From positions 1-46,535 of the forward strand of contig JAJFUG010000081.1 of NCBI GenBank assembly GCA_021372515.1: a stretch of DNA of 46,535 nt. The letters are read 5' to 3'. The DNA comes from a bacterium. Its GTDB lineage: Bacteria > Gemmatimonadota > Glassbacteria > GWA2-58-10. The position numbers were made by a program, and so were the translations under genes. The first letter of the stretch is position 1. Every line of letters begins with the position of its first letter. The notes below the pieces were generated by a model. The model was not told where the DNA came from. It made no database searches and worked only from the letters and a program-made list of their open reading frames with translations. Positions 30,180-45,781 of the stretch are shown here, one piece after another.

Positions 30180-31649
30180 TCAGGGGGCGCCCAGGTGGAG
30201 CAGGCGCTCGCGCACCCGGGCGTTGATCTCCGGGCTGCCGCCGCCGTTGTTCAGGAAAGAGCGGTACTCCTCGATGGCGCGGTCGAGGCGGCCGGTCTCA
30301 TCGTAGAGCAAGGCCAGGTTGTAGTGCGCCGCGCCGTAAGTCGGGTCGAGGGCGATGGCGCGCTGGAAAGCCTGTTCCGCCTCCCCGCTGCGGCTTGTCT
30401 TGCGGTAGACCAGCCCCAGGTTGTTGTAGGAGTCCTGGCTGGAGGGCTCCAACTGCACCGCCCGCTCCAGTTCGCTCCGGGCCTGCTCGTACTGCCCGCT
30501 GCGGTAGTAGGCCAGACCCAGATTGTTGTGCGCCTTGCTGTAGCGCGGGTCGATGAGCAGGGCTTTCTGCAGCACGGACACGGCCTTGCCGTATTCGCCC
30601 ACCTGGTTGTACAGCACGCCCATGTTGCTGAAGGCCTCGGCGTTGTAGGGCGAGATGTCGATCACTTTCTGGTATTGGTCAAGCGCGGACTGGATGTCGC
30701 CGTTGCGCTGGAAATAGACCGCCATGTTGAAATGGTAGATGTCCGGCCGTATCTCGGCGGTCGCCTCCCGGTCGCGCGGGACTATCTCGCCGCGCGGCGC
30801 GGCGGTGGTCGGGGTCTCGGTTGTCTCTCCGGGGCCCTGGGCCACGGTCTCGGCCAGCGGGGGCTGCTCCGCCGGAGCGGGCAGGTTGCCGGTCGGTGGA
30901 CCGGGGGGCAGGCTCACGGGCGCCGTGGCGCCGGCGGGATAGCTCTTTTGCTCCCCGGCGGGCCTGATCCGCGCCACATGTTCCCGGGCCGGTGTTTCCG
31001 CGGCGGTCTCGGCCGTCTCGGCGGGCGCGGCCTCGCTCCCGGCGGCTTCGGCCGCAGCCGTGGCCGTGCTGTCGGTGGGCTGGACGGCTTGCGCGGAATC
31101 CGCTGCGGAGTCGTTCGGGGCGGCGGCCTCGGGCGCGGGAGCCGGCGCGGGGGCGCTCTCCTGCCGCAGCGGGGCGGAGGACACGCTCATCCCGCCCTGG
31201 CTCAGGCCGGGCAGATAGACCTTGTTCACATAGTAAAGCGCGCCTGCGGCCAGCCCCAGCACAAAAACTACCAGCACCGGGATACGCCAGCTCCAGAGCT
31301 TGCGCGGGGCTTTCGGTTTGGCGGCCGGCTTGGCTGCGGCTTTGGCGTAGTCCGGGGCTGCCGCCTGGGCGGCGACCGGCTTGGTGGGACGCGGCGCGGT
31401 CGTGGCCGGGGCGGGCGCGGCGGTGGCGATCACGGATGCGGCCTGCAGCGCGGCGGCGGTTCGGGGCGCGGCGGTCTGAGTCAGCGGGATCGCCCGCGGG
31501 GCGGCCGCGGCCTGGGTGGCGGTGGCAACCGGGGCGGCCTTGACTGCCGGCTCGCCGCCCTCCTTTTTCAGGTCGAACGGTGGCAGGCCCTCCACCGGTT
31601 TCACCCCGATGCGCTGCGCTTTCTTGAGTGCGTCGGCTATGATGCTCAT
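30180..31649 (-). CDS. MshN-like TPR protein of the pilus locus
   Basis: 489 residues from an ATG at 31649 with GGAG six bases upstream. It opens SIIADALKKAQRIG, a motif typical of GspB/MshN-like pilus or secretion proteins. An Ala/Pro-rich stretch precedes one membrane helix (about 120-140). A second Ala/Pro/Glu-rich linker of ~150 residues follows, then five TPR units (about 305-475), for example AFSNMGVLYNQVGEYGKAVSVLQKALLIDP. The N-terminus is cytoplasmic and the TPR part should be periplasmic. It closes the pilus gene run and follows the ExeA-like gene by 28 bases. MSHA loci also place an mshN next to mshL and mshM. Confidence 0.8.
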   Translation of the reverse strand: MSIIADALKKAQRIGVKPVEGLPPFDLKKEGGEPAVKAAPVATATQAAAAPRAIPLTQTAAPRTAAALQAASVIATAAPAPATTAPRPTKPVAAQAAAPDYAKAAAKPAAKPKAPRKLWSWRIPVLVVFVLGLAAGALYYVNKVYLPGLSQGGMSVSSAPLRQESAPAPAPAPEAAAPNDSAADSAQAVQPTDSTATAAAEAAGSEAAPAETAETAAETPAREHVARIRPAGEQKSYPAGATAPVSLPPGPPTGNLPAPAEQPPLAETVAQGPGETTETPTTAAPRGEIVPRDREATAEIRPDIYHFNMAVYFQRNGDIQSALDQYQKVIDISPYNAEAFSNMGVLYNQVGEYGKAVSVLQKALLIDPRYSKAHNNLGLAYYRSGQYEQARSELERAVQLEPSSQDSYNNLGLVYRKTSRSGEAEQAFQRAIALDPTYGAAHYNLALLYDETGRLDRAIEEYRSFLNNGGGSPEINARVRERLLHLGAP

Positions 31650-31677: not shown

Positions 31678-33582
31678 TCATCTGGCGGTTTTCCACAGGC
31701 CGGTCCTTTCCACCAGTTCGCCGTGCAGCCCGGATTCCTCCAGACGGTCGGCCAGGAAAGCAGCCTGGGCTTTCTCCTCGAACGCTCCGGCGTACAGACG
31801 GTAGACCGCGGGGGTGCTCCCGTGCAGCTCGAAAGCGTACGAGGGGATGCTGAAACGGCTGAGATAGTCCTGACGGTCCTTTTCCGCGCCGGCCTGGCTG
31901 TCGTAATCACCAAGCTTGAAAGCCAACGGCGTCTGCACGATCCGGGCGCTGCCGGACGAGACTGTCCCCTGCTCCACCAGACGCATCAGCTCGGAGCGCG
32001 CGGCGTCGGCATCCGGGTAGCCGCCCAGGAACAGGCGGTACCAGCGGCCGCCCAACTGCACCAGGTGCAGCGGCACCACGTACATCTGCCCGCTCAGCCC
32101 CTGCTCGGTCAAAAGGCGCATCTGGTCCAGCCCGTCATCCAGGCTCTGGAACGCGCCGAGCTGGATGGAATAGGAAAGCTGCACCGCCGCATCGGTCGCC
32201 TGGCCCTGTCCCGCCTGGGCGGAGGCGGCCTCGGTCGCCGCAGCGGTCTGGCTCTGGGCCGGTGCTGCACTCTGCGCGGCCGGCTCCCTGGCCTGCGGCG
32301 CGGTCTTCTCCTGACCGGCCGCGGAGGGTTTGGACGCCGCGGGGGTATTTTTCTGCATATAGAAACGGTAGCCGAAAGCCGCGGCCAGTAGCAGGGTCAG
32401 CAGGACCAGCGCGGCGACGATGATTTTTCGCATCCCACCCGAGCCGCTTGCCTTCTTGCGCTCCCAGGGCTGTTTCACGGCCTCCTCGGGCGTCTCCTCC
32501 ATCTCGAACACCGGCGCGCCCTGACGGGGCGAGGTCGCGGCAGCCGGGGCCGCAGCCACGTGGTTCACCACCGCGGGCGTCTCATCCGGGCTGCTGATCG
32601 AGCGGACTATCTCGGCCTCCTCATCCAGGTTGCTCTCCAGGGAGCGGCGGCAGCGCTCGACCAGCTCACGGTCCACCCGCCGGGTCTGGTCCACGTAGGC
32701 CCCCAGCATCGAGCGCTCGCTGATGACGTTGATCAGGCGCGGCACGCCGCGGCTGTAATCGTAGATCGCCCCGTAGGCGTCATCCCCGAAAGTGACCGCC
32801 GCGTTGGAGCCGGCCACGAACAAGCGGTGCTCCACGTAGCGCTTGGTCTCCTCGACTGTCATGGGCTTGATCTGGTAACGCACCGAGATGCGCTGGTTGA
32901 GCTGGCGCAGGGCGGGGCCCTCCAGCTTACGCTTGAGTTCGAGCTGTCCGACAAGCACGATCTGGAGCAGTTTCTGGCGCGGGGTTTCGAGGTTCGATAG
33001 GATGCGTATCTGCTCCAGCACAGGGGACGAGAGGTTCTGGGCCTCATCGATGATGAGCACGGCGTTGCCGCCCTGGCTGGCGCGCTCCAGGAGCCAGGCG
33101 TTGAGCCGGTCGATCAGCTCTTTCTTGGAGGGCTGCACCGCCGGTTTTTCGACTTTGCTCAGGATGTCCTGCAGGACTTTGTTCGCCGGGAGCATGGGGT
33201 TCAGCTCCAGGGCGGTCTGGGTCTCGGGATCGAGGGTCTCGTACAGGCGGCGGTACTCCTCCTGACGGGCCTCGGGGGCATGGGGCGAGGGCAGGATGCC
33301 GAAATCCTGCAGGATCGCCTCCAGCAACTCGGTCTCGCTGAGCAGCGGGTTGAGGATCAGCGCGCTGGCCGAGCCGGGATCGAGCTTTTCGAGCAGCTCG
33401 CGGCAGATCGTGGTCTTGCCGGTGCCGATGTCCCCGACGATGAGGATGAACCCCTCACGCTCCCGGATGCCGTAGAGCATGTGGTCCAGCGCCTGACGGT
33501 GGCTTTCACTCAGGAACAGGAACCGTGGGTCCGGGGTCAGGGAAAACGGTTTTTCTTTCAGTCCGAAGAAATCAAGGTACAT
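31678..33582 (-). CDS. ExeA/MshM-like ATPase with membrane helix and two SPOR domains
   Basis: 634 residues. The N-terminal ATPase starts YLDFFGLKEKPFSLTPDPRFLFLS, typical of ExeA/GspA/MshM. Walker A is GDIGTGKTT (50-58) and Walker B is VLIIDEAQNL (about 175-184); an insert of ~60 residues lies between them. A membrane helix is at 386-408, then an Ala/Gln-rich linker, then two SPOR-like domains (about 470-545 and 555-634, the first with YSIQLGAFQS and WYRLFLGGY). SPOR domains bind denuded peptidoglycan. In Aeromonas ExeA, a different peptidoglycan-binding domain helps the secretin cross the wall; this protein probably does the same job. It follows the secretin gene by 65 bases. Confidence 0.86.
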   Translation of the reverse strand: MYLDFFGLKEKPFSLTPDPRFLFLSESHRQALDHMLYGIREREGFILIVGDIGTGKTTICRELLEKLDPGSASALILNPLLSETELLEAILQDFGILPSPHAPEARQEEYRRLYETLDPETQTALELNPMLPANKVLQDILSKVEKPAVQPSKKELIDRLNAWLLERASQGGNAVLIIDEAQNLSSPVLEQIRILSNLETPRQKLLQIVLVGQLELKRKLEGPALRQLNQRISVRYQIKPMTVEETKRYVEHRLFVAGSNAAVTFGDDAYGAIYDYSRGVPRLINVISERSMLGAYVDQTRRVDRELVERCRRSLESNLDEEAEIVRSISSPDETPAVVNHVAAAPAAATSPRQGAPVFEMEETPEEAVKQPWERKKASGSGGMRKIIVAALVLLTLLLAAAFGYRFYMQKNTPAASKPSAAGQEKTAPQAREPAAQSAAPAQSQTAAATEAASAQAGQGQATDAAVQLSYSIQLGAFQSLDDGLDQMRLLTEQGLSGQMYVVPLHLVQLGGRWYRLFLGGYPDADAARSELMRLVEQGTVSSGSARIVQTPLAFKLGDYDSQAGAEKDRQDYLSRFSIPSYAFELHGSTPAVYRLYAGAFEEKAQAAFLADRLEESGLHGELVERTGLWKTAR

Positions 33583-33647: not shown

Positions 33648-35342
33648 TCAGCGGCGGAACTGGCCCTCGCCGAACTCGTAACGCTTGACCAGCTCGCGGT
33701 AATGGTTGATCTGCTGCTGCGAGCTGATCTGTTCGGTCGGACGGCTGTAATTTATGTAGGGTGTGAGCATTATCACAAGCTCGATCTTATCCCTCTTCTT
33801 TTCCACCTGCTTGAACAGATTGCCGAACAGCGGCACTTTCGACAGCCCCGGCACCTCGCGCTTGTCATCGTTCTCGCGCTCCTGGATCAGGCCGGCCAGG
33901 ACCACGGTCTGGCCGTGACGGACCTTGGCCACGGTGTCCAGCTCGCGCACATCCGTGACAGGGCTGGAACTCAGCCCGTCCGGGCTGACCGCCACCGAGG
34001 CGATGGTGGTGATCGAGGGCCGGATGGACATGATGATCAGGCCGTCATCGCTGATCTGCGGGGTTAGGTTCAGCACCACGCCCGTGGGCTGCTGGATGGG
34101 CACGTAATTGACTGTCGGCTGAGTGGCCGGACTGGTGGCCGTGGCCTGCAGTCCCGGAGTTTCCTGGCGCTGGAAGAAAGTCTCGTTGCGCGCCACCCGG
34201 ATCACGGCGGGCTGGTTGTTCAGGGTGCTCACCTGCGGGCTCTGCAGCACGTTCACCGTGCCGTGCTGGCTGATCGCCGACATGATCGCGCTGATGTTCT
34301 TGTTGGACACACCGATCTGGAACTCGCCGTTGCCCGGATCGAGCGACTGGCTGGCGGCCGCGCCGCCGGTCAGGGCGCCCTTGAGGTTGGACAGGTTGGT
34401 CAGGTCCGGGATCACCGACCAGTCCAGGCCGGCGCTGAAATTCTCGCTCAGGTTGATCTCGACGAATCGCGCCTCGATCAGCACCTGACGCTGCAGGCTG
34501 CTCTCGATGGCCTGGATGAAATTCTCCGCCTCCGCCATCACCTCGTCGTTGGCCGTGATCTGCACCACACCGGAGTTGGGGTCGACCACCAGACGGTGGC
34601 CGGTGGTGGCATCCACTCCCGAGAAATTGCCCTGCGGAGTCAAGGCCGGCGTGGTCTGCTGGCCCTGGCCCAGCACAATCGCCTGCAGGCCGTTGCGGAT
34701 GTCCTCCCACAAGTTGACCGTGTTCTGGGTCTGCAGCGTGGTGGTGCTCTGCGGGATCAACCCGCCGGCCGCCGCGCCGCCCTGGCCGGTCAGGGTCATG
34801 GTCCCGGTGATCTGGCGCGCCGTGTTCAGGTAGTTCAGGTTGAACACCTTGGTGCGCAGCCCGGCGGCGTCCACGAACAGGAAATTGTCCTCCAGGCGGT
34901 ACTTGAAATTCTTGCGCGGCAGCACAATGTCCAGGAACTTGAAGAAAGTCACGCCCTTGAGGTTCAGGTTCAGCGTATCCTGGACCTTGGGATCGAGCAC
35001 AAGGTTGAGCCCCAGCTGGTCGCACATGGTCTGAAGGACCGTGCCCAGCTCCACGCCCGGCAGGTCGAGGTCGAACACATGCTCGGCCTTGTTGAAACTG
35101 TAGTCGGGATGCTTTTCCTGCTCCACCTGCGGGACGGATATCTCGGGCAGGCCCTGGGCGTCCGGCTCATCCTGCAGGCTTATCCGGTTGACCGGCTGGC
35201 TGACCTCGGGCACTGCGGGCGCCGCGCGACGCTCCGAGCGCAACTGACGGTGGCAGGAGGCGGAGACAAGGACCATCAACACTGCGGGGACAAGCAAAAT
35301 CACTCTGAAGGCGCGGGCCGCGACTGCACCGTGCACTCTCAT
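33648..35342 (-). CDS. Outer-membrane secretin lipoprotein (MshL/PilQ/GspD family)
   Basis: 564 residues. The signal ends in a lipobox (VLVSASC), so the protein is lipid-anchored, as MshL is. N-terminal domains (about 85-170) contain a secretin N0/STN part: FDLDLPGVELGTVLQTMCDQLGLNLVLDPKV. An N1-like part follows, then the C-terminal secretin barrel (VLQSPQVSTLNNQPAVIRV; VLNLTPQISDDGLIIMSIRPSI; VVLAGLIQERENDDKREVPGLSKVPLFGNLF). It forms the gated ring through which the pilus leaves. GGAGG sits five bases before the ATG. A 193-base gap separates it from pilO upstream. Confidence 0.92.
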   Translation of the reverse strand: MRVHGAVAARAFRVILLVPAVLMVLVSASCHRQLRSERRAAPAVPEVSQPVNRISLQDEPDAQGLPEISVPQVEQEKHPDYSFNKAEHVFDLDLPGVELGTVLQTMCDQLGLNLVLDPKVQDTLNLNLKGVTFFKFLDIVLPRKNFKYRLEDNFLFVDAAGLRTKVFNLNYLNTARQITGTMTLTGQGGAAAGGLIPQSTTTLQTQNTVNLWEDIRNGLQAIVLGQGQQTTPALTPQGNFSGVDATTGHRLVVDPNSGVVQITANDEVMAEAENFIQAIESSLQRQVLIEARFVEINLSENFSAGLDWSVIPDLTNLSNLKGALTGGAAASQSLDPGNGEFQIGVSNKNISAIMSAISQHGTVNVLQSPQVSTLNNQPAVIRVARNETFFQRQETPGLQATATSPATQPTVNYVPIQQPTGVVLNLTPQISDDGLIIMSIRPSITTIASVAVSPDGLSSSPVTDVRELDTVAKVRHGQTVVLAGLIQERENDDKREVPGLSKVPLFGNLFKQVEKKRDKIELVIMLTPYINYSRPTEQISSQQQINHYRELVKRYEFGEGQFRR

Positions 35343-35535: not shown

Positions 35536-36096
35536 TCATTCTGGGGTGTAATAGCATTTCAGGTTCAGGCTCACCGTGACATGCGGCATCCCGCGGGTGA
35601 TATCCAGCGAGGTGACCTCCACCAGACGGTCGAGCGCGCGGATGTCGCGCAGGAACTCCAGCAGGGCGCCGAACCCGCACTGGAAAGTGAGCTTGAGGTC
35701 GAAACTGCTGTGCGCGATCCCGCCCTCCTCACTCACGGCCGGGGCGGCCCCTCCGGCCAGCTCGACCAGCTCCCGCTGGAAATCGATCAGCGAGTCCTTT
35801 TCCACCAGACGGGACAGATCGCTGTATAGCGAGGTGATCTCCATCCCCTTGGGCATCCGGCGCTGGATCAGCAGCCCCAGCGTGTCCCACTGGGCGCGCT
35901 CCGAGTCGGTGGGCTCCTCGAACGAGCTGAGCTGCATGGCGATCGACTCGATCTGTTGACGGGTGGCCAGGGGCTTGTTCCTGTACTCGGAGATCTTGGC
36001 CATCTCCGGGCGGTACAGGCCGAACCAGACCACGGCGAAAAAAGCCAGCACGCCGAGCGGCAGCAGAACCTTGTTCAGAACGCTCTTCAGGTTCAC
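35536..36096 (-). CDS. PilO/MshJ-like pilus assembly protein
   Basis: 186 residues. A short cytoplasmic tail, one membrane helix (about 10-28) and a coiled-coil (about 30-65) lead to a small alpha/beta periplasmic domain (SFDLKLTFQCGFGALLEFLRDIRALDRLVEVTSLDI). That is the PilO layout. PilN and PilO form a dimer that aligns the inner-membrane platform with the secretin. Its GTG start overlaps the stop of the PilM-PilN gene (GTGA), which supports joint production. Related GspM/MshJ proteins have the same fold. Confidence 0.85.
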   Translation of the reverse strand: MNLKSVLNKVLLPLGVLAFFAVVWFGLYRPEMAKISEYRNKPLATRQQIESIAMQLSSFEEPTDSERAQWDTLGLLIQRRMPKGMEITSLYSDLSRLVEKDSLIDFQRELVELAGGAAPAVSEEGGIAHSSFDLKLTFQCGFGALLEFLRDIRALDRLVEVTSLDITRGMPHVTVSLNLKCYYTPE

Positions 36097-37739
36097 GGCC
36101 CCACCCCCACCTGCAGCTCACCCTCGATCTGAAACGCCAGGACATAGACATTGTTCTCGTAGGCGCCGTTGATTTTCGGCTCCTTGAGCGAGACGAACAG
36201 CCCGCAGCCCTGCAGGCGCTGGTACAGAAGGTTGAGCTGGGTATCGGTCTCGGCGATCGAGGCGCTTTTCACCTGGCCGGCGACCGAGGCCAGGGGCTTG
36301 CCCGAGGTGTCATCCACCTTTACGTTCAGCAGACAGGCCTTGTCCGGCAGATAGTTGCTCAGGGCGTAGAGCAGAAGGACATCCGGGGAGGCGGACGATT
36401 CGAAGCGCGCCAGAAACGCACGCCGCACCGCGGCCAGGTCGCGCGACTGCTTGATCTCGCCGATCCGGTCCAGGCTGCGGGTCAGTTCGGCCAACTGGTG
36501 CTCCTGGTCGCTCTGGCGGATCGCATCCTCCAACTCGGTGCGCGTGTCCCGGATCATCAGGTAGCCCACGCTCATGCCCACAAAAACGACCACCGCCGCG
36601 GCTATGCCAAGGGTGCGGCGCAGGCGCGCCTGACGGCGCGACTGGTAGGCCGGGGGCACGAAATTGAGCTTGGCCTCTTTCTGGCCCTGAAGCGCCGCCC
36701 CGAGGGGCAGGGCCAGCGAGGGGAAAATGCGCTCCAGCTTTTCGGCGCGCTCGCCCAGGTGGCTGTACTGGAAACCCATCGAGGGCAGGTAGGTGCAGGA
36801 CTCGATCCCGATGTTCTTGCCGATCGAGCCGGCGATCTCATCCAGGTTGAACGCCTCGCCGCTCAGGACGATCAGGCTCACCCCTTCCCCGCGGAATCGC
36901 TGCTTGAAATACAGCAGGGAGCGGTTGACCTCGATCAGGAGACGTTCCTGGTCGGCCATGTAGCGCGCGCTGGCGAACTGGCGCTTCGCCTGGAGCGAGG
37001 CCTGCCCCTGGTTCTCGCTCTCGTTCTTGGTCAGCACCGACTGGAACTCGCGGGAGAAGACCCAGGTGCCGCGGTTGGAAATGACCAGGAAACTGCGGTC
37101 GCGCTCCAGGTGCACCATGGCGGCGATTATTTTCGTGCTTTTCTCGCCGTAGGCGCCGAACGCCGAGATGAGCGACAGCGGCACGGTGCTGATGAGCTGG
37201 GTCTCCAGCTCGCAGTTCTCCATCAGCCCGATGATGCGGCCCACGTTCTCGCGCGGCACCACGCCGATCAGCACATCGGACTTGCGCCCGGCGCGTCGCG
37301 CGCCGCGGTCGAGCCAGAAATCGGAGGCAATGTCCCGGCTGCCCGCCTCCGGCACTATTTTCTTGACCTCGCGCCGCACCAGGGCTTCCATCTCGTTGCG
37401 GTTGAGCGCCGGCAGCGAAACCTGGCGGTGCTCGACCCCGGTGTCGTAGACCATGGCGTTCACGGTGGTGGCGGTGATGTTCTTTTCGTGCATCAGCCCG
37501 AGGATCTGGTCCGTGGCCTCCTGCACGTTGTCCATCAGCGGGTCGATGGCCGAGAAATTGATGATGCGCGGCGGGTTGGTCCCGCGGTCGATCTCGATTA
37601 TACGCATGATCGAGGGCGTGACCTGCAAGCCGATCACGTTGCGGCCGCCGGGACGGGCCAGCCCCAGCCGCTGGAGGATCGCCGCGGGAGTGTATTTGGC
37701 CTTGCGCCTGGGGCCTTTCTTTCCGGTCTGTCCAGCCAT
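36093..37739 (-). CDS. PilM-PilN fusion protein (pilus inner-membrane platform)
   Basis: About 548 residues from the ATG at 37739 (AGG five bases upstream); an ATG at 37751 is also possible. Residues about 30-345 are an actin-like PilM/GspL-cytoplasmic domain (NVIGLQVTPSIMRIIEI; SLIVLSGEAFNLDEIAGSI). LNFVPPAYQSRRQARLRR then matches the N-terminal PilN motif, a membrane helix lies at about 374-396, and a coiled-coil and periplasmic ferredoxin-like domain follow (ALSNYLPDKACLLNVKV; LLYQRLQGCGLFVSLKEPKI). In standard type IV pili PilM and PilN are separate and PilM binds PilN's tail; here they are one chain, as in GspL. Confidence 0.82.
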   Translation of the reverse strand: MAGQTGKKGPRRKAKYTPAAILQRLGLARPGGRNVIGLQVTPSIMRIIEIDRGTNPPRIINFSAIDPLMDNVQEATDQILGLMHEKNITATTVNAMVYDTGVEHRQVSLPALNRNEMEALVRREVKKIVPEAGSRDIASDFWLDRGARRAGRKSDVLIGVVPRENVGRIIGLMENCELETQLISTVPLSLISAFGAYGEKSTKIIAAMVHLERDRSFLVISNRGTWVFSREFQSVLTKNESENQGQASLQAKRQFASARYMADQERLLIEVNRSLLYFKQRFRGEGVSLIVLSGEAFNLDEIAGSIGKNIGIESCTYLPSMGFQYSHLGERAEKLERIFPSLALPLGAALQGQKEAKLNFVPPAYQSRRQARLRRTLGIAAAVVVFVGMSVGYLMIRDTRTELEDAIRQSDQEHQLAELTRSLDRIGEIKQSRDLAAVRRAFLARFESSASPDVLLLYALSNYLPDKACLLNVKVDDTSGKPLASVAGQVKSASIAETDTQLNLLYQRLQGCGLFVSLKEPKINGAYENNVYVLAFQIEGELQVGVGP

Positions 37740-37799
37740 CTTCGCCTGCATGTCCGAAGTTGAAGTCCGACTTGTTCTCAAGCTGTCACGTGACTGCGA

Positions 37800-38411
37800 T
37801 CAGGGCGCCTTGCGTATCCGGATAACCGGCTGCCGGGCGCTGGTATCCTGGGCCGTGGCATTCAGCGGAATCCGCCGGGTGCTCCCGTTTCCGGATTCCA
37901 GTGTCATCGTGTTCATATCCAGCCCGACCACCTTTTCCTCCCCGATCCGGTCCCCCACCCCGTAATAGCGCCCCTCGATCAGCGCCATGAACTTGCCGGT
38001 CACGTTGTCCTGGATCACACCCTTGACCGGGATTTCAGGCGGGGGCGGCCCCTCGTCGACCACGACCGGTGCGGCGTCCGGCAGGGCCGGCTCCAGCAAT
38101 TCGCCGTGGGCCAGGGCCTTCTCCTCATCCAGAGTGAGGAAAGGGTTGCGGGCCAGGCTGGACGGGACATTCAGCGCCACCGGCGCACCGGGGGCCGCAG
38201 CCGTTGCGGCGGGCGGCCCGCCGGCGGGGGCGGCCGTGGCTGCCGCGGCCTGCTCGGCCTGAAACTCCTGCTCCACTTTGGAGGGCTGGCGCACCACTTC
38301 CAGGTTGACCGGCGGCGCGGCGTGCTGCTTGAAATAGTTCAACCAGTTCCAGGCGCCGCCGGCAAGCCCGGCCAGGGCCACCACCGCCAATATGATATGC
38401 TTCTTCTGCAA
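37800..38411 (-). CDS. PilP/MshK-like pilus periplasmic protein
   Basis: 203 residues from a TTG start. One N-terminal membrane helix (about 5-22) precedes a Pro/Ala-rich linker (about 50-80). A C-terminal beta domain has RNPFLTLDEEKAL and, near the end, IPVKGVIQDNVTGKFMALIEGRYYGVGDRIGEEKVVGLD. This 'G-x-I, then binding-site, then V-G-D' pattern is that of PilP, GspC and MshK homology regions that join PilN/PilO to the secretin. It is anchored by a helix rather than by a lipid. It lies ten bases after the pseudopilin gene. Confidence 0.75.
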   Translation of the reverse strand: MQKKHIILAVVALAGLAGGAWNWLNYFKQHAAPPVNLEVVRQPSKVEQEFQAEQAAAATAAPAGGPPAATAAAPGAPVALNVPSSLARNPFLTLDEEKALAHGELLEPALPDAAPVVVDEGPPPPEIPVKGVIQDNVTGKFMALIEGRYYGVGDRIGEEKVVGLDMNTMTLESGNGSTRRIPLNATAQDTSARQPVIRIRKAP

Positions 38412-38421
38412 ACCACCCCCG

Positions 38422-40188
38422 TCAGAACAGCCCGTTGATATGGAAACTGGTCGTATCCGCGCCGCCGCCCGGGTTGGTGATATAAATCAGACGGTCCACC
38501 CCCAGCAGGCTGAACCCGACATCCACCCGGACCCGGATGCTGGTCGCGCTCTGGAACTGGGTCTGGTCGACCGAAAGCGGCGAGCCGCTGGTCGTGGCCG
38601 TGAACCCGCTGACAAAGTTGCTGCCGGTGAACTGGATCCAGACATTGTTGTTGCCGGTGTTGGCGCTGACCGGGTTGATCGAGGCGATATTCGGCTTGAC
38701 CGCCAGCAGGGTGAACGCCGACTCGGCGAACTTGTTGTCCGGGTTGGTGACCCGTACGGTGCCGGCTCCGGTGGAGGCGCTGCCCGAAACATTGACTGTG
38801 ACATTGATCTGCGAGGAGCTCACGAATGTCTTGTTGGTGATCGAGATCCCCGGGTTGGAGAAAGTCACGTTGGTGTTGCTCAGGAGATTCTGCCCCGTGA
38901 TCGTGATCAGCAGGCCCGAGGTTCCCTGGTTGGCCATGGCTGGCGAGACCAGCGTGATCTGCGGAGACGGGTTGCCGGAGGAGGTCAGGACCTCGAACTT
39001 GTTGTAGCCCGAGCCGTACAGGCTGTTCGGGTTGGTCACAGTCACGTTGCGGTAGCCGGTGGGGGCCGAGGCGGCGATGGTGACGCGCACCGTGAGCTGC
39101 GTGGCGCCGACGAAAGTGGCCGGCACTGTCAGCACGGTGATGCCGGTGCCGCTGAACGCCACTGTGGCCCCGTCCGCGAAATACGCCCCGTCGATCGTGA
39201 TCAGCTTGTTGGTCTCGCCCTGACGGCCGAAGCTGGGCGTGATATCGTTGACTATGGGCGTTGACATTTCGCCGGCCGCGCCGCCGTTGATCGCCGGGTT
39301 GAGCGAGTCGGGGTCGATGGCGTTGGGCGTGCCGTCGCCGTCGATGTCCGGGTCCAGGCTGTTCGGGACCCCGTCACCGTCCTGGTCCTCCAGACGGTCC
39401 GGGACCCCGTTGGCGTTGAGGTCCGTATCGGTGCGGCTCAGATAGTCGGCATCCTGCAGACTTACACTGATCGTGGTCTTGGAGCCGGGAAGGATCGTCA
39501 CCAGCTCCTTGGCCGTGCTGGCCGGATCGATAATCGCCTTGGTGGCGTTGACCGTGAGAACGTGGACCCCCTGGTGGATCGAGTCCACCTTGAAGATCAT
39601 GTCCGTGGCGTTGAAAGGCAAGGTCATCACCGCTGGGGCGCCGTTGTTGGCGTACGAGAGGGTGGCGTTGACCTGTTCGAAAGTGGCGTCCTGGATCAAC
39701 CGTCCGTTGATGAACACCTGAACGTCCAACTCACCCTTGTACTTGCTGATGGGGTTTTCCGGGTAGTTGATGTCATCTCCGGTCCCGTTGTTATTCGTCC
39801 GGTTGGGTCCGAAACTACGCACGCGGATGGGGCTTTTGTCGAAAGCATAAGGCTTTCCGTAGGGGTCTTTCACGGTCACGGAGCCCCCGAGCGACAGATA
39901 GGGTCCGTTCCAGGCCGTGCCCTGGCCGGCCCCGTTGATAAGCTGAGGAATCGAATCCGGCAGGCGGCCGACATCGCCCACAAACCCGAAATAATTCTCC
40001 TGCGGCTTGCCCATGGCGGCCTCGTAAATCGCTTGGAGGTCTCCCACCACCCTCTTGTAGCGCGCCTCCTCGATCTGGTGGTATGCCACCGGGACCACGG
40101 CCGCGGCCAGGATCGCCATGATCGTGATCGCGACGATCACTTCGATCAGGCTGAAACCACGGTCTGTATGCAATCGTATCCGTTTCAT
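38422..40188 (-). CDS. GspG-like pseudopilin fused to Ca-binding repeats and three IPT/TIG domains
   Basis: 588 residues, about four times a normal pseudopilin. A short basic leader ends at the prepilin peptidase site G11/F12 (RG-FSLIEV, Glu at mature position 5), followed by the ~20-residue hydrophobic pilin helix. A GspG-like globular part runs to about 145 (VKDPYGKPYAFDKSPIRVRSFGPN). A beta stretch and then Asp-rich thrombospondin type 3-like repeats lie at about 253-295 (DLNANGVPDRLEDQDGDGVPN). Three IPT/TIG immunoglobulin-like domains follow at about 311-400, 408-495 and 498-588. These features suggest a tip or minor pilin acting as adhesin, with calcium-stabilised stalk. The ATG at 40188 gives the shortest plausible leader. 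Confidence 0.85.
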   Translation of the reverse strand: MKRIRLHTDRGFSLIEVIVAITIMAILAAAVVPVAYHQIEEARYKRVVGDLQAIYEAAMGKPQENYFGFVGDVGRLPDSIPQLINGAGQGTAWNGPYLSLGGSVTVKDPYGKPYAFDKSPIRVRSFGPNRTNNNGTGDDINYPENPISKYKGELDVQVFINGRLIQDATFEQVNATLSYANNGAPAVMTLPFNATDMIFKVDSIHQGVHVLTVNATKAIIDPASTAKELVTILPGSKTTISVSLQDADYLSRTDTDLNANGVPDRLEDQDGDGVPNSLDPDIDGDGTPNAIDPDSLNPAINGGAAGEMSTPIVNDITPSFGRQGETNKLITIDGAYFADGATVAFSGTGITVLTVPATFVGATQLTVRVTIAASAPTGYRNVTVTNPNSLYGSGYNKFEVLTSSGNPSPQITLVSPAMANQGTSGLLITITGQNLLSNTNVTFSNPGISITNKTFVSSSQINVTVNVSGSASTGAGTVRVTNPDNKFAESAFTLLAVKPNIASINPVSANTGNNNVWIQFTGSNFVSGFTATTSGSPLSVDQTQFQSATSIRVRVDVGFSLLGVDRLIYITNPGGGADTTSFHINGLF

Positions 40189-40213: not shown

Positions 40214-41455
40214 TCAGCTCTGGCCCAGTTGCTGCAGCGACAGCATGGGCAGGAGAATGGCAAGGACGACAAACAGTATCACCACACCCAGAACCAGGAT
40301 TACGCCGCTCTCCAGCACTGTGGTCAGTCTCTTGACCGCCTGCGGCACTTCGCGGTCATAATAGTCCGCCACTTTCTGCAGCGTCTCCTCCAGGTTTCCG
40401 GTGGTCTCGCCGATCGTGACCATCCGCACGACCATGGACGGGAACTGGCCGCTTTCGCGCAGCGCCCCGGCGATAGTCTGGCCGGTGCCGACCTGGATAC
40501 GGGCGCGGCGTATGACCTCGGCCAGCACGGCGTTTCCCACCACACGCTCGACCACTTCCAGGGCCCCCATGATGTTGACCCCGGCGCCGAAAAGAGTGGC
40601 CAGGTAATGCGAGAACCGGCTGAGCGCGATCCGCCGGACCAGCTCGCCGAACACCGGAATCCTCAGCTTGATCCGGTCCAGGACCAACCGTCCGCCCGGT
40701 GTCTTGTTGGCCGCGCGCAGGCCGACTATGGTCCCCACCACCGCCGCGATCAACAGCCACCAGAAATTCTGGAAAAACGCGCTGAGCGCGATTACGATGC
40801 GGGTGGGCAGGGGCAGTGGAATGTTGAAGCTGTCGAAAATGCCCAGGAAACGCGGGAGGATGAAAGTGAACAGCGCGGTGACCAGACCGCCGACGAAAGT
40901 CATGACAATTATCGGATAGGTGCTGGCCTGCTTGATCGTGCCGATAAGCTCGCTCTGCCATTCCAGGAAACGGACTATTTCCTTGAGCACCTCGTCCAGG
41001 CGGCCGGTGGTTTCGCCGCTCTTTAGGATCGAAACGTACAGCTCGCTGAAAATGTCGGGGTACTGGGCGAAAGCGTCCGAGATGCTGAACCCGTCCTGGA
41101 TCGATTGGCGGATGCCGCGGACCACCTCGCGGAAACGGGGGTTCTCGGTCTCCTCGATCATGTCGTCCAGGCCCTGCAGGATCGGCACACCGGCGCCGAT
41201 CACCGTGGCCAGGTGCACGGTGAACGAGATCAGGTCCTGACGTTTGACTTTGGCCCGCACGATCCGGCGTGAACCGGATTCGGAACGTCCGCCGGAGGAG
41301 GCTTTTTTCCCACCACTTTTGGACTCGCGGGCCGTGATGAGGATCAGGTTGCTCTTGTCGAGCTGGTTTTCCAGATCGCCTTCATCCTCGGCGGTCAGTG
41401 TCCCCTTGACCGTCTTGCCCGCGTCGTCCGTGGCTTTGTAATCGAAAACCGGCAT
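40214..41455 (-). CDS. Type II secretion/type IV pilus inner-membrane platform protein (PilC/GspF/MshG)
   Basis: 413 residues. It opens PVFDYKATDDAGKTVKGTLTAEDEGDLENQL, the usual PilC/GspF N-terminus, and has two repeated GspF domains (SFTVHLATVIGAGVPILQGLD and RFSHYLATLFGAGVNIMGALEVV). Three membrane helices lie at about 175-200, 222-245 and 383-406. GETTGRLDEVLKEI and GETTGNLEETLQKV are the conserved cytoplasmic loops. It turns with the motor ATPase to add pilin subunits. It lies between the ATPase gene (169 bases upstream) and the pseudopilin gene. Confidence 0.94.
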   Translation of the reverse strand: MPVFDYKATDDAGKTVKGTLTAEDEGDLENQLDKSNLILITARESKSGGKKASSGGRSESGSRRIVRAKVKRQDLISFTVHLATVIGAGVPILQGLDDMIEETENPRFREVVRGIRQSIQDGFSISDAFAQYPDIFSELYVSILKSGETTGRLDEVLKEIVRFLEWQSELIGTIKQASTYPIIVMTFVGGLVTALFTFILPRFLGIFDSFNIPLPLPTRIVIALSAFFQNFWWLLIAAVVGTIVGLRAANKTPGGRLVLDRIKLRIPVFGELVRRIALSRFSHYLATLFGAGVNIMGALEVVERVVGNAVLAEVIRRARIQVGTGQTIAGALRESGQFPSMVVRMVTIGETTGNLEETLQKVADYYDREVPQAVKRLTTVLESGVILVLGVVILFVVLAILLPMLSLQQLGQS

Positions 41456-41563
41456 GGCTCGCTCTCCGCAGGCTCATATACCCGACTTGCGTTCGGAAGC
41501 TTCTAAGCCCCGCTTCCTGGGGCCAGCCTGCATAGCGGCAGGCCCCTGTGCTTGCCATATTCG

Positions 41564-41595
41564 ATTCGGGCGGCCACAGGGGGCCGCCCCTACGG
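41564..41595. repeat. Palindromic (REP-like) element, copy 2 (single hairpin)
   Basis: ATTCG, then arms GGGCGGCC/GGCCGCCC (41568-41575 and 41582-41589), then CTACG. On the minus strand it begins GTAGGG and ends CGAAT, the same ends as half of the element at 45841-45900. A second hairpin with arms CCTGC/GCAGG flanked by GGGG/CCCC sits just upstream (about 41519-41546). It occupies the gap between the MshE/PilB-like and PilC-like genes and may affect their relative expression. Confidence 0.65.
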
Positions 41596-41624
41596 TGTTA
41601 TCTCCCACGCCCCGGCCAAAAGAA

Positions 41625-43307
41625 TTACATCCCGGCGTAGGTCACCCGCAGGACTTCCTCGATACTGGTCTGGCCGCCCACGGCCTTGATCAGGGCGTCG
41701 TGCATCAGGGTGGTCATCCCTTCCTCGATCGCGGCGGTCTTGATCTCGGGGCCGTCCGCCCGGCGCAGCACCAGCTTCTCGATCCGTGGGCTGACCGTGA
41801 GCACCTCGTAGATCGCGCAACGTCCGCTGTAGCCGGTGCCGTTGCAGGCTTCGCAGCCCTCGCCCTTGTAGAACTTATACTTGCGGCCCTTCTCGTTCAG
41901 ACCCAACTTGCGCAGGTCATCATCCGAGGGCTCGCACTCTTTCTTGCACGAGAGGCAGATCTTGCGGATCAGGCGCTGGGCCAGCACACAGTTGACCGAG
42001 CTGGAGACAAGGAACGATTCGATGCCCATTTCAACCAGACGGGGGAAGGCACCGGCCGAGTCGTTGGTGTGCAGGGTGCTGAACACCAGGTGGCCGGTCA
42101 TGGCGGCCTGCATGGCAATCTCGGCCGTCTCCTGGTCACGTATCTCGCCCACCAGGATCACGTCCGGGTCCTGGCGCAGGATCGCGCGCATGCCCGCGGC
42201 GTAGGTGAACCCGGCGCGGGTGTTGATCTGGGCCTGGCGCACCAGGGTCATCTCGTACTCGACCGGGTCCTCCAGGGTGACGATCTTGCGCTCGGAGTTG
42301 TTCAGGAAACTCAGGGCCGAATACAGGGTGGTGGTCTTGCCGCTTCCGGTGGGCCCGGTGACCAGGATGATGCCGTTGGGACGGGTGATGGAGCGCTTGA
42401 ATATCTCCAGGTTCTTCGGGGTGAACCCCAGGCGCTCCAGGCCAAGGATGACCTTGCTCTTGTCCAGAAGGCGCAGGACCACGTTCTCGCCGTTGATTGT
42501 CGGCAGGGTGGACACGCGCAGGTCCACCTGCTTGCGACCCATGTGGAACCGGATTCGCCCGTCCTGGGGAAGGCGGCTCTCGGCGATGTTCATGTTGCTC
42601 ATGACCTTGAGCCGGGCGATCACCCCGGCCTGCAGCGACTTGGGCAGCGAGGGCCCCTGCTGCAGAATGCCGTCGATCCGGAACCGTGTGCGGATCGTGT
42701 TCTCATCCGGCTCGATGTGTATGTCCGTGGCCCCGCCGCGGGCGCCCTTGATCAATATCTGGTCCACGATCTTCACCACCGGTGACTCCTCGGTGGAGGC
42801 CTGGCGCTCATCCGCGCCGCTGCGCTCGGCGGCCAGGGAGAGCTGCTCGATCACGTCATCCTCGCTGACCTCGCCCTCGTAGAACCGCTCGATGGCGGAG
42901 AGGATATCGCTTTCGGTGGCCTGGACCGCCTCGATGAACTTGCCGGTGCGGCTCTGCAACTGGTCGATCATCATCACGTCCAGCGTGTTGTCCATCGCCA
43001 CCAGCAGGGTGTCATCCTTGAGTGAGACCGGCACCAGCTTGTTGCTCTTGGCAAACTCCTTGTCGATCAGGCGGATCGCGCTGTCATCCCCACGGCGGCG
43101 TCCCAGTTCGAGAAGCTTGACTCCGGCCTGGCCCGCCACCACCTGGGCGACATCCTCCTCCTTGCAGAAACCGAGATTGACCAGCACCTCGCCCAGGCGC
43201 TTGCCCGTGCGGTTCTGCTCTTTCACTCCCAGTTCGAGCTGGTCGCGGGTGATCACCGCCGCGTTCACCAGCGCCTGTCCCAGCGGCTGTGCCGACTGAA
43301 TCGCCAT
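41625..43307 (-). CDS. Pilus extension ATPase (MshE/PilB/GspE family) with MshEN domain
   Basis: 560 residues. Two 24-residue motifs of the c-di-GMP-binding MshEN type lie at 8-31 (PLGQALVNAAVITRDQLELG...) and 37-60 (RLGEVLVNLGFCKEEDVAQV...), separated by exactly five residues. The motor domain has Walker A GPTGSGKTTT, the Asp box LEDPVEYEM, Walker B ILVGEIRDQETAEIA and the His box TGHLVFSTLHTNDS. Zinc-binding cysteines are in ICLSCKKEC and GCEACNGTGY. It powers pilus assembly at the cytoplasmic face. The ATG at 43307 with GGGAG seven bases upstream begins the nine-gene pilus run. Confidence 0.94.
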   Translation of the reverse strand: MAIQSAQPLGQALVNAAVITRDQLELGVKEQNRTGKRLGEVLVNLGFCKEEDVAQVVAGQAGVKLLELGRRRGDDSAIRLIDKEFAKSNKLVPVSLKDDTLLVAMDNTLDVMMIDQLQSRTGKFIEAVQATESDILSAIERFYEGEVSEDDVIEQLSLAAERSGADERQASTEESPVVKIVDQILIKGARGGATDIHIEPDENTIRTRFRIDGILQQGPSLPKSLQAGVIARLKVMSNMNIAESRLPQDGRIRFHMGRKQVDLRVSTLPTINGENVVLRLLDKSKVILGLERLGFTPKNLEIFKRSITRPNGIILVTGPTGSGKTTTLYSALSFLNNSERKIVTLEDPVEYEMTLVRQAQINTRAGFTYAAGMRAILRQDPDVILVGEIRDQETAEIAMQAAMTGHLVFSTLHTNDSAGAFPRLVEMGIESFLVSSSVNCVLAQRLIRKICLSCKKECEPSDDDLRKLGLNEKGRKYKFYKGEGCEACNGTGYSGRCAIYEVLTVSPRIEKLVLRRADGPEIKTAAIEEGMTTLMHDALIKAVGGQTSIEEVLRVTYAGM

Positions 43308-43644: not shown

Positions 43645-44607
43645 ATGGAAACACCCCGTCTGAGTGTGGTCATCCCGATGTACAACGAGGGCGAAAACGT
43701 GCGCCGCACCGTGGCCGCCGTGATCGCGGAACTCGAGCCCGCGGGAATCGGCTTCGAGCTGGTGTGCGTGGATGACGGGTCCACGGACGACACGCTGGGC
43801 ATGATCCTGGAGCTGGCCGCCTCCGACAGCCGGGTCCGGGCAGCCGGCCATCCGGTCAACCGCGGGCGGGGCGCGGCTCTGCGCGCCGGTTACGCCGCCT
43901 CTGCGGGCGAATATATCGTGGCGATCGACGCCGACCTGAGCTACCACCCGCGGCAGATAATGCAGCTCGTACGCCGCCTGGAGGAACCGGATGCGCCGGA
44001 CATCGTGCTGGCCAGCCCCTACATGCCGGGCGGCCGCACCGAGGGCGTGGCGCCGCTGCGGCTTTTTATCAGCCGGGCGGCCAACGTGATCCTGCGTCAG
44101 GCCATGGGACGGCGCTACTGGACCATGACCAGCGTGTTCCGCGCCTACAGGCGAAGGGTTTTCGAGTGCATCGAACTCTACAGCGAGGGCAAGGACATCC
44201 ACCTGGAAACCGTGGCCAAGGCCGAGGCAGCGGGCCTGAGGATAGTCGAGTCGCCGGCCGTGCTGACCAGCCGCAAGCGCGGCAAGAGCAAGCTCAAGTT
44301 CCGCGTCACCGCGCTCAGCCACCTGATGTTCTCGTTCTACGAGCGGCCGATCCTGCTGTTCGGCGTGGCCGGCCTGGTCCTTATCCTGGCCGCGGCGGGA
44401 ATAGCCGGGTATCTTTTCCACCTCTGGCTGATCGCGCGGCTGAACCCCACCCGCCCGATTGTCTGGCTGAGCGTGATCCTCCTGCTGGCCGGCATCCAGA
44501 TCGCCGGGTTCGCGTTCGTGAGCACCCAGGTGAGCATGCTGCGGCGCGAGCTGTTCCGCACCCAGAAAGAAATCCTCCTGCTGCGGCGCGGCGACGCCCG
44601 GAAATGA
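43645..44607 (+). CDS. Family 2 glycosyltransferase with C-terminal membrane helices
   Basis: 320 residues. A GT-A domain opens LSVVIPMYNEGENVRRTV, with nucleotide-binding CVDDGSTDDT and the metal-binding DxD in VAIDADLSYHP. The GT2 dolichol-phosphate-mannose-synthase-like pattern continues with TSVFRAYRRRVFE. Two membrane helices lie near the C-terminus (about 234-260 and 272-295). It probably moves a sugar from a nucleotide donor to a lipid carrier or to a growing glycan at the inner membrane. The next gene starts eight bases after its stop, so the two enzymes likely act in one pathway; the product is unknown. Confidence 0.9.
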   Translation: METPRLSVVIPMYNEGENVRRTVAAVIAELEPAGIGFELVCVDDGSTDDTLGMILELAASDSRVRAAGHPVNRGRGAALRAGYAASAGEYIVAIDADLSYHPRQIMQLVRRLEEPDAPDIVLASPYMPGGRTEGVAPLRLFISRAANVILRQAMGRRYWTMTSVFRAYRRRVFECIELYSEGKDIHLETVAKAEAAGLRIVESPAVLTSRKRGKSKLKFRVTALSHLMFSFYERPILLFGVAGLVLILAAAGIAGYLFHLWLIARLNPTRPIVWLSVILLLAGIQIAGFAFVSTQVSMLRRELFRTQKEILLLRRGDARK

Positions 44608-44614
44608 GCCCCGC

Positions 44615-45781
44615 ATGCCCGGCCCGGTCTGTGTCATAACCAACGCCTACCCCGACCTGCCCGGCTCCTACCACGGCTCTTTCATCCGCCGCACGGTGGA
44701 GGACCTGGCAGTGCGCGGCTGGCGCTCGTACGTGCTGGCCCCGCGTATCTACCGCGAAAGCCCCCCGCGCGAGAGCTTCCCAACTCACGACATCCGGCGG
44801 TTCCCGTTCCTCTCGGCGCAAAAGCTCCTTATCGAATACGAACGCACCCCGTACCTGCGCGTGGCCTCCCTTGTCACTTCGGGAACAGCGGCATCTGTCA
44901 GCGAAATTCTGCGCCACGGCTGCGGCCTGATCCACGCGCATTGGGCGTTCCCGGCCGGGCTTGTGGGCCTGGCCGCGGCGCGTGTGACCGGAAGGCCCCT
45001 CATTCTCACGGTCCATGGCTCGGACCAGCGTCTTGCCGCCGAGCGCGGCGGTGTTGCGGCGCAAATATTCCGCACTGTCGCCCGCGGAGCCGCGCGGGTG
45101 CAAAGTGTCTCCGGCCCGATCACGGATTACCTTCTCTCCATCGGCGTGCCGGCCGGGCGTATCCTCACCCGCCCGCTGGGGGTGGATGAGTCCGTGTTCA
45201 ACGCCTCCGTGCAACCGGACAAGGACTCGGCGGACTCTTTCGGCATCCTCAGCACGCGCAGCCTGTTGCCGCTCTACCGGGTGGAGGACCTGGTGCGGGC
45301 CGCCGCGCGCCTGCGCGAAAATATCCCGAGACTGCACCTGGTCCTGGCCGGGGAGGGCCCCGAGCGCGGTTCTCTTGAATCCCTGGGCGCGGAGCTGGGC
45401 CTGGGCGACAGGCTGACTTTCACCGGACGGCTCACCCCACCCGAGCTGGCGCGCCAGTTGGCCGCCTGCCGGGTGTACGTGAGCACCAGCCCGGCCGACG
45501 GCACGAGTGTATCTCTTCTCGAAGCCCTGGCCCTGGGTTGCCTGCCCGTAGTGGCCGACATTCCCTCCAACCGCGATTGGGTGAGTCTCGGCGTGAACGG
45601 CCTTCTGTTCCCGCCCGGGGACATAGACTCCCTGGCGGAGTGCATTCTGCAGGCCAGCCGTGACAGCGCTCTGGCCGCCCGGGCACGGAGCGAGGGACCC
45701 AGGCTTGTGGCCGCGCGTGGCCTCTGGCGCGGGCAGATCGAGACGTTGGATTCGCTCTACAGCGAGTTGTGGCGGGGGTGA
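44615..45781 (+). CDS. Family 4 (GT-B) glycosyltransferase
   Basis: 388 residues. The N-terminal Rossmann half begins CVITNAYPDLPGSYHGSFIRRTVEDL and includes IHAHWAFPAG and LTVHGSDQRLA. The C-terminal half has VLAGEGPERGSLESLGAELGLGDRLTFTGRL and the donor-binding Glu region SPADGTSVSLLEALALGCLPVVADI. This is the GT4 pattern of retaining enzymes that build capsule, exopolysaccharide or lipopolysaccharide. No membrane helix is predicted. It follows the GT2 gene by seven bases and ends before a compound palindrome at 45841. Confidence 0.9.
   Translation: MPGPVCVITNAYPDLPGSYHGSFIRRTVEDLAVRGWRSYVLAPRIYRESPPRESFPTHDIRRFPFLSAQKLLIEYERTPYLRVASLVTSGTAASVSEILRHGCGLIHAHWAFPAGLVGLAAARVTGRPLILTVHGSDQRLAAERGGVAAQIFRTVARGAARVQSVSGPITDYLLSIGVPAGRILTRPLGVDESVFNASVQPDKDSADSFGILSTRSLLPLYRVEDLVRAAARLRENIPRLHLVLAGEGPERGSLESLGAELGLGDRLTFTGRLTPPELARQLAACRVYVSTSPADGTSVSLLEALALGCLPVVADIPSNRDWVSLGVNGLLFPPGDIDSLAECILQASRDSALAARARSEGPRLVAARGLWRGQIETLDSLYSELWRG

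Follow-up and report, generated by a model that had tools for sequence, protein, structure and literature searches.

A probable adhesive modular pilin with a GspG-like head and three IPT/TIG domains in an MSHA- and T2SS-like operon of Glassbacteria

Does a single gene at this locus really join a pilin to calcium-type repeats and an array of Ig-like domains, and if so, what would such a protein do in a pilus? We studied the question in the window, the whole stretch of 46,535 nucleotides that was analysed. The gene had been placed at 38422-40188; these coordinates are correct, and the strand is the minus strand. The frame runs from an ATG at 40188 to a stop at 38422-38424 and contains no internal stops. 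The encoded protein consists, in order, of a prepilin signal, a GspG-like head, a beta-sandwich, an Asp-rich TSP3-like stretch, and three IPT/TIG domains, and the arm beyond the head is about 440 residues long.

38422..40188, minus strand: modular pilin gene, 588 aa (open frame and translation; orthologs in five relatives)
40156..40188, minus strand: prepilin leader, residues 1-11, ending in Gly11 (N_methyl, E=5.8e-8; TIGR02532, 32.5 bits, cut-off 16.3)
39757..40155, minus strand: alpha-1 helix and GspG-like head, residues 12-144 (TIGR01710 match; alignment with GspG-like pilins of the phylum; helix 14-59 in both structure models)
39454..39741, minus strand: predicted CnaB/transthyretin-like beta-sandwich, residues about 150-245, seven strands (two models; Foldseek)
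39301..39432, minus strand: TSP3-like Asp repeats, residues about 253-296 (PF02412 below cut-off; ortholog identity; weak match to 3fby)
38977..39264, minus strand: IPT/TIG domain 1, residues 309-404 (NF058597 at 39019-39261; model)
38701..38976, minus strand: IPT/TIG domain 2, residues 405-496 (PF01833, E=3.6e-8; NF058597)
38425..38700, minus strand: IPT/TIG domain 3, residues 497-588 (NF058597 at 38452-38697)

This type of gene was present in all six sampled genomes of the order, and a class-wide search likewise reached only six genomes. Four relatives have the gene at full length, with 55-61% identity (55-60% in the alignment). In the fifth (G002), the gene is split: contig C206 breaks off after the first 174 codons, and the last 246 lie at the edge of C410. 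A frame-joining or assembly error was thus excluded, as the same fusion is found at full length in four relatives and is interrupted in the fifth solely by contig ends; the pilin and IPT parts thus form one gene in four of the five relatives. Recent acquisition was also rejected on composition, as the GC3 of the gene (0.85) resembles that of its neighbours. No other full-length relative was found among 298 genomes sampled across the phylum. The other matches were as follows: one Muribaculaceae IPT protein, from a search of genome contigs, has no pilin signal; the IPT proteins matched in the phylum have none in the parts examined (the N-terminus of one, L020, runs off its locus); and the remaining phylum matches are compact pilin frames of at most 308 codons.

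The N-terminus carries a class III (prepilin) signal, with N_methyl above its cut-off, and the predicted cleavage site stands. The mature chain starts with FSLIE, with Glu at mature position 5, and the signal is present in 6 of the 7 aligned rows, the seventh being a C-terminal fragment. The following head was matched by the GspG profile TIGR01710 at residues 10-141, covering profile positions 1-131 of 134, with 39.4 bits against a cut-off of 88.85; on the isolated head, Pfam T2SSG gave 20.3 bits against a cut-off of 21. The GspG-like head of the original prediction is borne out by this nearly complete profile coverage, although the TIGR01710 score is far below its cut-off. The head contains the motifs GPYL and DPYG and a GspG-like Ca-loop (SFGPN...GTGDD), and in the alignment GPYL, DPxG, and the C-terminal loop are common to it and the GspG-like pilins of the phylum; these GspG-type motifs occur in a gene that follows gspF. 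Both structure predictions modelled the head at low confidence, and a second run with added GspG-like pilins still gave no confident head.

Between the head and the Asp-rich stretch, both models placed a beta-sandwich at moderate confidence. Its Foldseek matches were a rhamnogalacturonan lyase domain, CnaB2, and DUF3823, and it had no match in the Pfam search. This modelled CnaB/transthyretin-like domain is an addition to the domain list of the original prediction, in which it was missed.

The TSP3-like Asp repeats had been recognised there, and the recognition is upheld by composition and conservation: Asp accounts for 13 of 52 residues, and no other part of the protein is as well conserved among the orthologs, the mean pairwise identity being 80% here and 50-65% elsewhere. 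The PF02412 match itself is weak and below its cut-off (on the isolated stretch, E=0.0014 and 18.7 bits against 25; best score among the orthologs, E=0.0043), and the TSP3 region of COMP (3fby) matched residues 253-296 weakly (E=0.065). Calcium binding by this stretch is putative, judged from the Asp pattern and the conservation. Four repeats resembling the stretch (VDENGNGINDRLEDDDSDG...DPDSK) also occur in a small secreted-looking protein of the same genome (L005, G000:C39:9554-9937).

All three predicted IPT/TIG domains were recovered. The NCBIfam IPT-like repeat NF058597 matched three times, each above its 30-bit cut-off. PF01833 exceeded its cut-off in domain 2 only (33.7 bits against 20.9); domains 1 and 3 are assigned to IPT through NF058597 and internal similarity. 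The three copies resemble one another with z=16.0, 9.1, and 10.8, and none of 1000 shuffles reached the score, which excludes chance resemblance. The predicted structure is all-beta with high confidence over residues 312-588 (pLDDT about 84-94 over the IPT region, about 309-588), so that Ig-like domains do follow residue 310. The Foldseek matches for the array included the IPT domains of plexin A1, Bacteroides SGBP-B, invasin, and FdeC. Over the whole chain their TM-scores were low, as would follow from domains without a fixed mutual orientation; thus, these matches support the fold and not the arrangement. Domain 3 is the most variable domain, with 50% mean identity among the orthologs. As an extra C-terminal part not specific to pilus biology, the three domains have the character of the module in modular pilins.

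The only other PF01833 match in the same genome (L002, G000:C197:29358-29600) lies in a frame of 1549 codons; the part examined has no pilin signal, and its N-terminus runs off the locus. In two other genomes of the phylum (L024 in G165 and L026 in G183), proteins of about 570 aa have, as judged by eye, a serine-protease-like N-terminal part and a C-terminal IPT-like domain; one TGA was counted inside each of these two matches.

The 588-aa gene sits between gspF and the gene of a PilP-like protein in the same operon, with flanking gaps of 25 and 10 bp. The other genes of the operon are as follows.

41625..43307, minus strand: extension ATPase (GspE/PilB type) with an MshE-type c-di-GMP-binding motif (PF00437, E=4.9e-133; MshEN, E=3.1e-18; NF053729, 60.5 bits, cut-off 38)
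40214..41455, minus strand: platform protein, GspF (T2SSF, E=4.1e-57)
37800..38411, minus strand: PilP/GspC/MshK-like periplasmic protein (position and sequence pattern only; orthologs aligned)
36093..37781, minus strand: PilM-like protein with a C-terminal extension, probably a fused PilN (PilM_2, E=9.1e-9)
35536..36096, minus strand: PilO/GspM-like protein (PilO, E=0.0037, and T2SSM, E=0.0034, both below cut-off)
33648..35342, minus strand: secretin, closest to MshL (Secretin, E=1.5e-38; TIGR02519 MshL, 210.6 bits, below the cut-off of 250.2)
31678..33582, minus strand: ExeA/MshM-like AAA ATPase with a SPOR domain (AAA_22, E=5e-27; SPOR, E=2.6e-9)
30180..31649, minus strand: TPR protein starting MSIIADALKKAQ, in an MshN/ExeB-like position (TPR families; start 31649 assigned by eye)

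The PilP-like protein had no match in the Pfam and NCBIfam searches, and no PilT was found in the operon. As far as the contigs extend, the relatives share the order gspE-gspF-pilin-PilP-PilM/N-PilO-secretin (in G002 it was read across two contigs). When 249 genomes were searched with the PilM/N protein of this operon, strong matches came from the six genomes of the order alone. As a whole, the machine resembles both MSHA and T2SS and does not qualify as a member of either type. The original claim, one protein combining a pilin, calcium-type repeats, and three IPT domains, is thus confirmed, and this protein is conserved and encoded in a secretin-containing pilus operon. The 588-aa protein is thus real and probably an adhesive subunit.

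Two features were seen beside these genes. The 169-bp gap between gspE and gspF (41456-41624) contains a GC-rich palindrome-like sequence (GGGCGGCCACAGGGGGCCGCCCC), whose 15-base core occurs once in the window. Two glycosyltransferase genes, one of the GT2 and one of the GT1 type (43645-45781, plus strand), are divergent from gspE, and a similar pair adjoins the operon or the compact pilin described below in G001, G003, and G004.

The gene had also been called the only pilin-like gene in the locus. This holds for the window, where a prepilin motif scan found one motif only; with this single motif, neither MshA and minor pilins nor the minor pseudopilins H, I, J, and K are found at the locus. 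It does not hold for the genome. PF07963 had six matches in each of the four genomes checked. One is the 588-aa type, another is a compact GspG-like pilin encoded in a frame of 215-225 codons, and the other four are clustered and look like a T4a set. The four genomes further encode two secretins and four T2SSE-family ATPases apiece. The pilin operon holds a single member of either kind, and the remaining ones would fit a T4a pilus. Upstream of gspE, the compact pilin ends at a distance of 4.9 kb in G001 and 2.6 kb in G004, separated from it by two oppositely oriented glycosyltransferase genes. In G003, a different contig carries it at its end, next to apparently the same pair, and in the source genome it is on contig C10, unlinked to the operon.

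What, then, does the 588-aa protein do? We propose, with moderate confidence, that it is a modular pilin whose IPT arm serves adhesion and is displayed at or close to the end of a filament. A prepilin peptidase would process the N-terminal part, and the MSHA/T2SS-like machine of the same operon would polymerise the pilin under the c-di-GMP-responsive MshE-type ATPase. The C-terminal arm, with the CnaB-like sandwich, the calcium-type spacer, and the three IPT domains, would be carried out through the secretin at, or close to, the leading filament end. Calcium may stiffen the Asp-rich spacer, and the distal IPT domains may bind a surface, glycan, or protein ligand; no ligand-binding motif was identified in the protein. 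The bulk of the filament would more likely be built by the compact GspG-like pilin (215 aa).

Several observations argue for this reading. The protein has a complete pilin signal, a GspG-like head, and Glu5; its gene lies tightly inside a machinery operon of the same order in the relatives; and the ATPase carries the MshE-type motif. The confident IPT array has structural matches in adhesins of bacteria (invasin and FdeC) as well as in SGBP-B and plexin IPT domains, and variation is greatest in the distal IPT domain and smallest in the Asp spacer. All four genomes checked also encode the compact GspG-like pilin, which lies near gspE in two of them. PilB and PilC of Streptococcus sanguinis (PMC8179133) provide a precedent: their grafted modules mediate adhesion, and tip exposure was thought likely.

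Other observations count against this reading. The protein may instead be the main filament subunit itself, a positional GspG, in a filament or short pseudopilus decorated with IPT domains lengthwise. GspG is the shaft-building kind of pseudopilin in T2SS, and the 588-aa protein has a GspG-type head, matched over nearly the whole profile, in the gene order gspE-gspF-pilin. It is also the sole pilin in its operon, the compact pilin being unlinked in the source genome, and it keeps Glu5, unlike GspK, the extreme tip subunit. On the other hand, one or a few arms at the leading end could pass the secretin, whereas bulky arms of 440 residues on every subunit would not be expected to, and these genomes also encode a compact GspG-like pilin. 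We regard a main subunit as unlikely. The stronger form of this idea, a lineage-specific filament of a type undescribed so far, decorated over its full length with calcium-braced IPT arms, seems to us quite improbable.

It is just as unlikely that the operon encodes a T2SS-like secretion machine whose periplasmic arm recognises the secreted substrates or pushes them, with no display outside. The GspE/GspF/GspG-like set and the lack of PilT in the operon would suit such a machine, and a large pseudopilin at the tip has a precedent in GspK; however, the H, I, J, and K pseudopilins are missing at the locus, the secretin scores best as MshL, and IPT stalks are typical of surface proteins. That the pilin part is merely an inner-membrane anchor, or is held in the machine, with the arm tethering envelope parts and no filament formed, would fit the low-confidence model of the head but is very improbable given the full pilin signal, Glu5, and the dedicated assembly operon in all relatives.

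Our preferred reading, an adhesive arm at the filament end, has to be placed among known systems. Modular pilins were described in 2021 as more than 1,200 proteins with 264 architectures (PMC8179133). As large pilins with grafted domains are thus a described class, the original statement that the protein is not of a type known as described was too strong. In the article texts covered, searches for pilins that carry TIG or TSP3 turned up no account of this domain order. The 588-aa protein belongs to the modular-pilin class, and its domain order is probably a new variant; its incorporation into a filament is predicted from sequence. The point of interest is that a GspG-like head, and not the head of a small minor pilin, bears a long Ig-like arm, fixed throughout the lineage together with a c-di-GMP-type pilus operon. 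MSHA has been reported in a few Proteobacteria only (PMC10191384). If confirmed, our finding would add MSHA/T2SS-like machines, apparently from outside Proteobacteria, to the systems that have modular pilins, and would raise the question of how bulky arms pass a secretin.

Compared with S. sanguinis PilB and PilC (PMC8179133), the protein is alike in combining a pilin signal with a large, non-pilin C-terminal module and in being a candidate filament-displayed adhesin. It differs in its head (theirs is that of a small T4P minor pilin), in its arm (a CnaB-like sandwich, TSP3-like spacer, and three IPT domains, compared with vWA or lectin), and in its MSHA/T2SS-like operon. It resembles T2SS GspG in the near-complete profile alignment, GPYL, DPxG, the Ca-loop, and the gene position after gspF, but it scores far below the GspG cut-off, has the 440-residue extension, and has no other T2SS pseudopilins at its locus. 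The operon shares with the MSHA (mannose-sensitive haemagglutinin) pilus, a proposed T4eP, the MshE-type ATPase, an MshL-like secretin, the ExeA/MshM-like SPOR ATPase, a TPR protein, and the lack of PilT; however, its secretin is below the MshL cut-off, and the MshA/B/C/D/O/P/Q set is missing. The IPT arrays of plexins and Bacteroides SGBP-B are not pilins and have no sequence-level relation beyond the domain, but they match the arm structurally as tandem IPT/Ig-like domains forming an extended arm.
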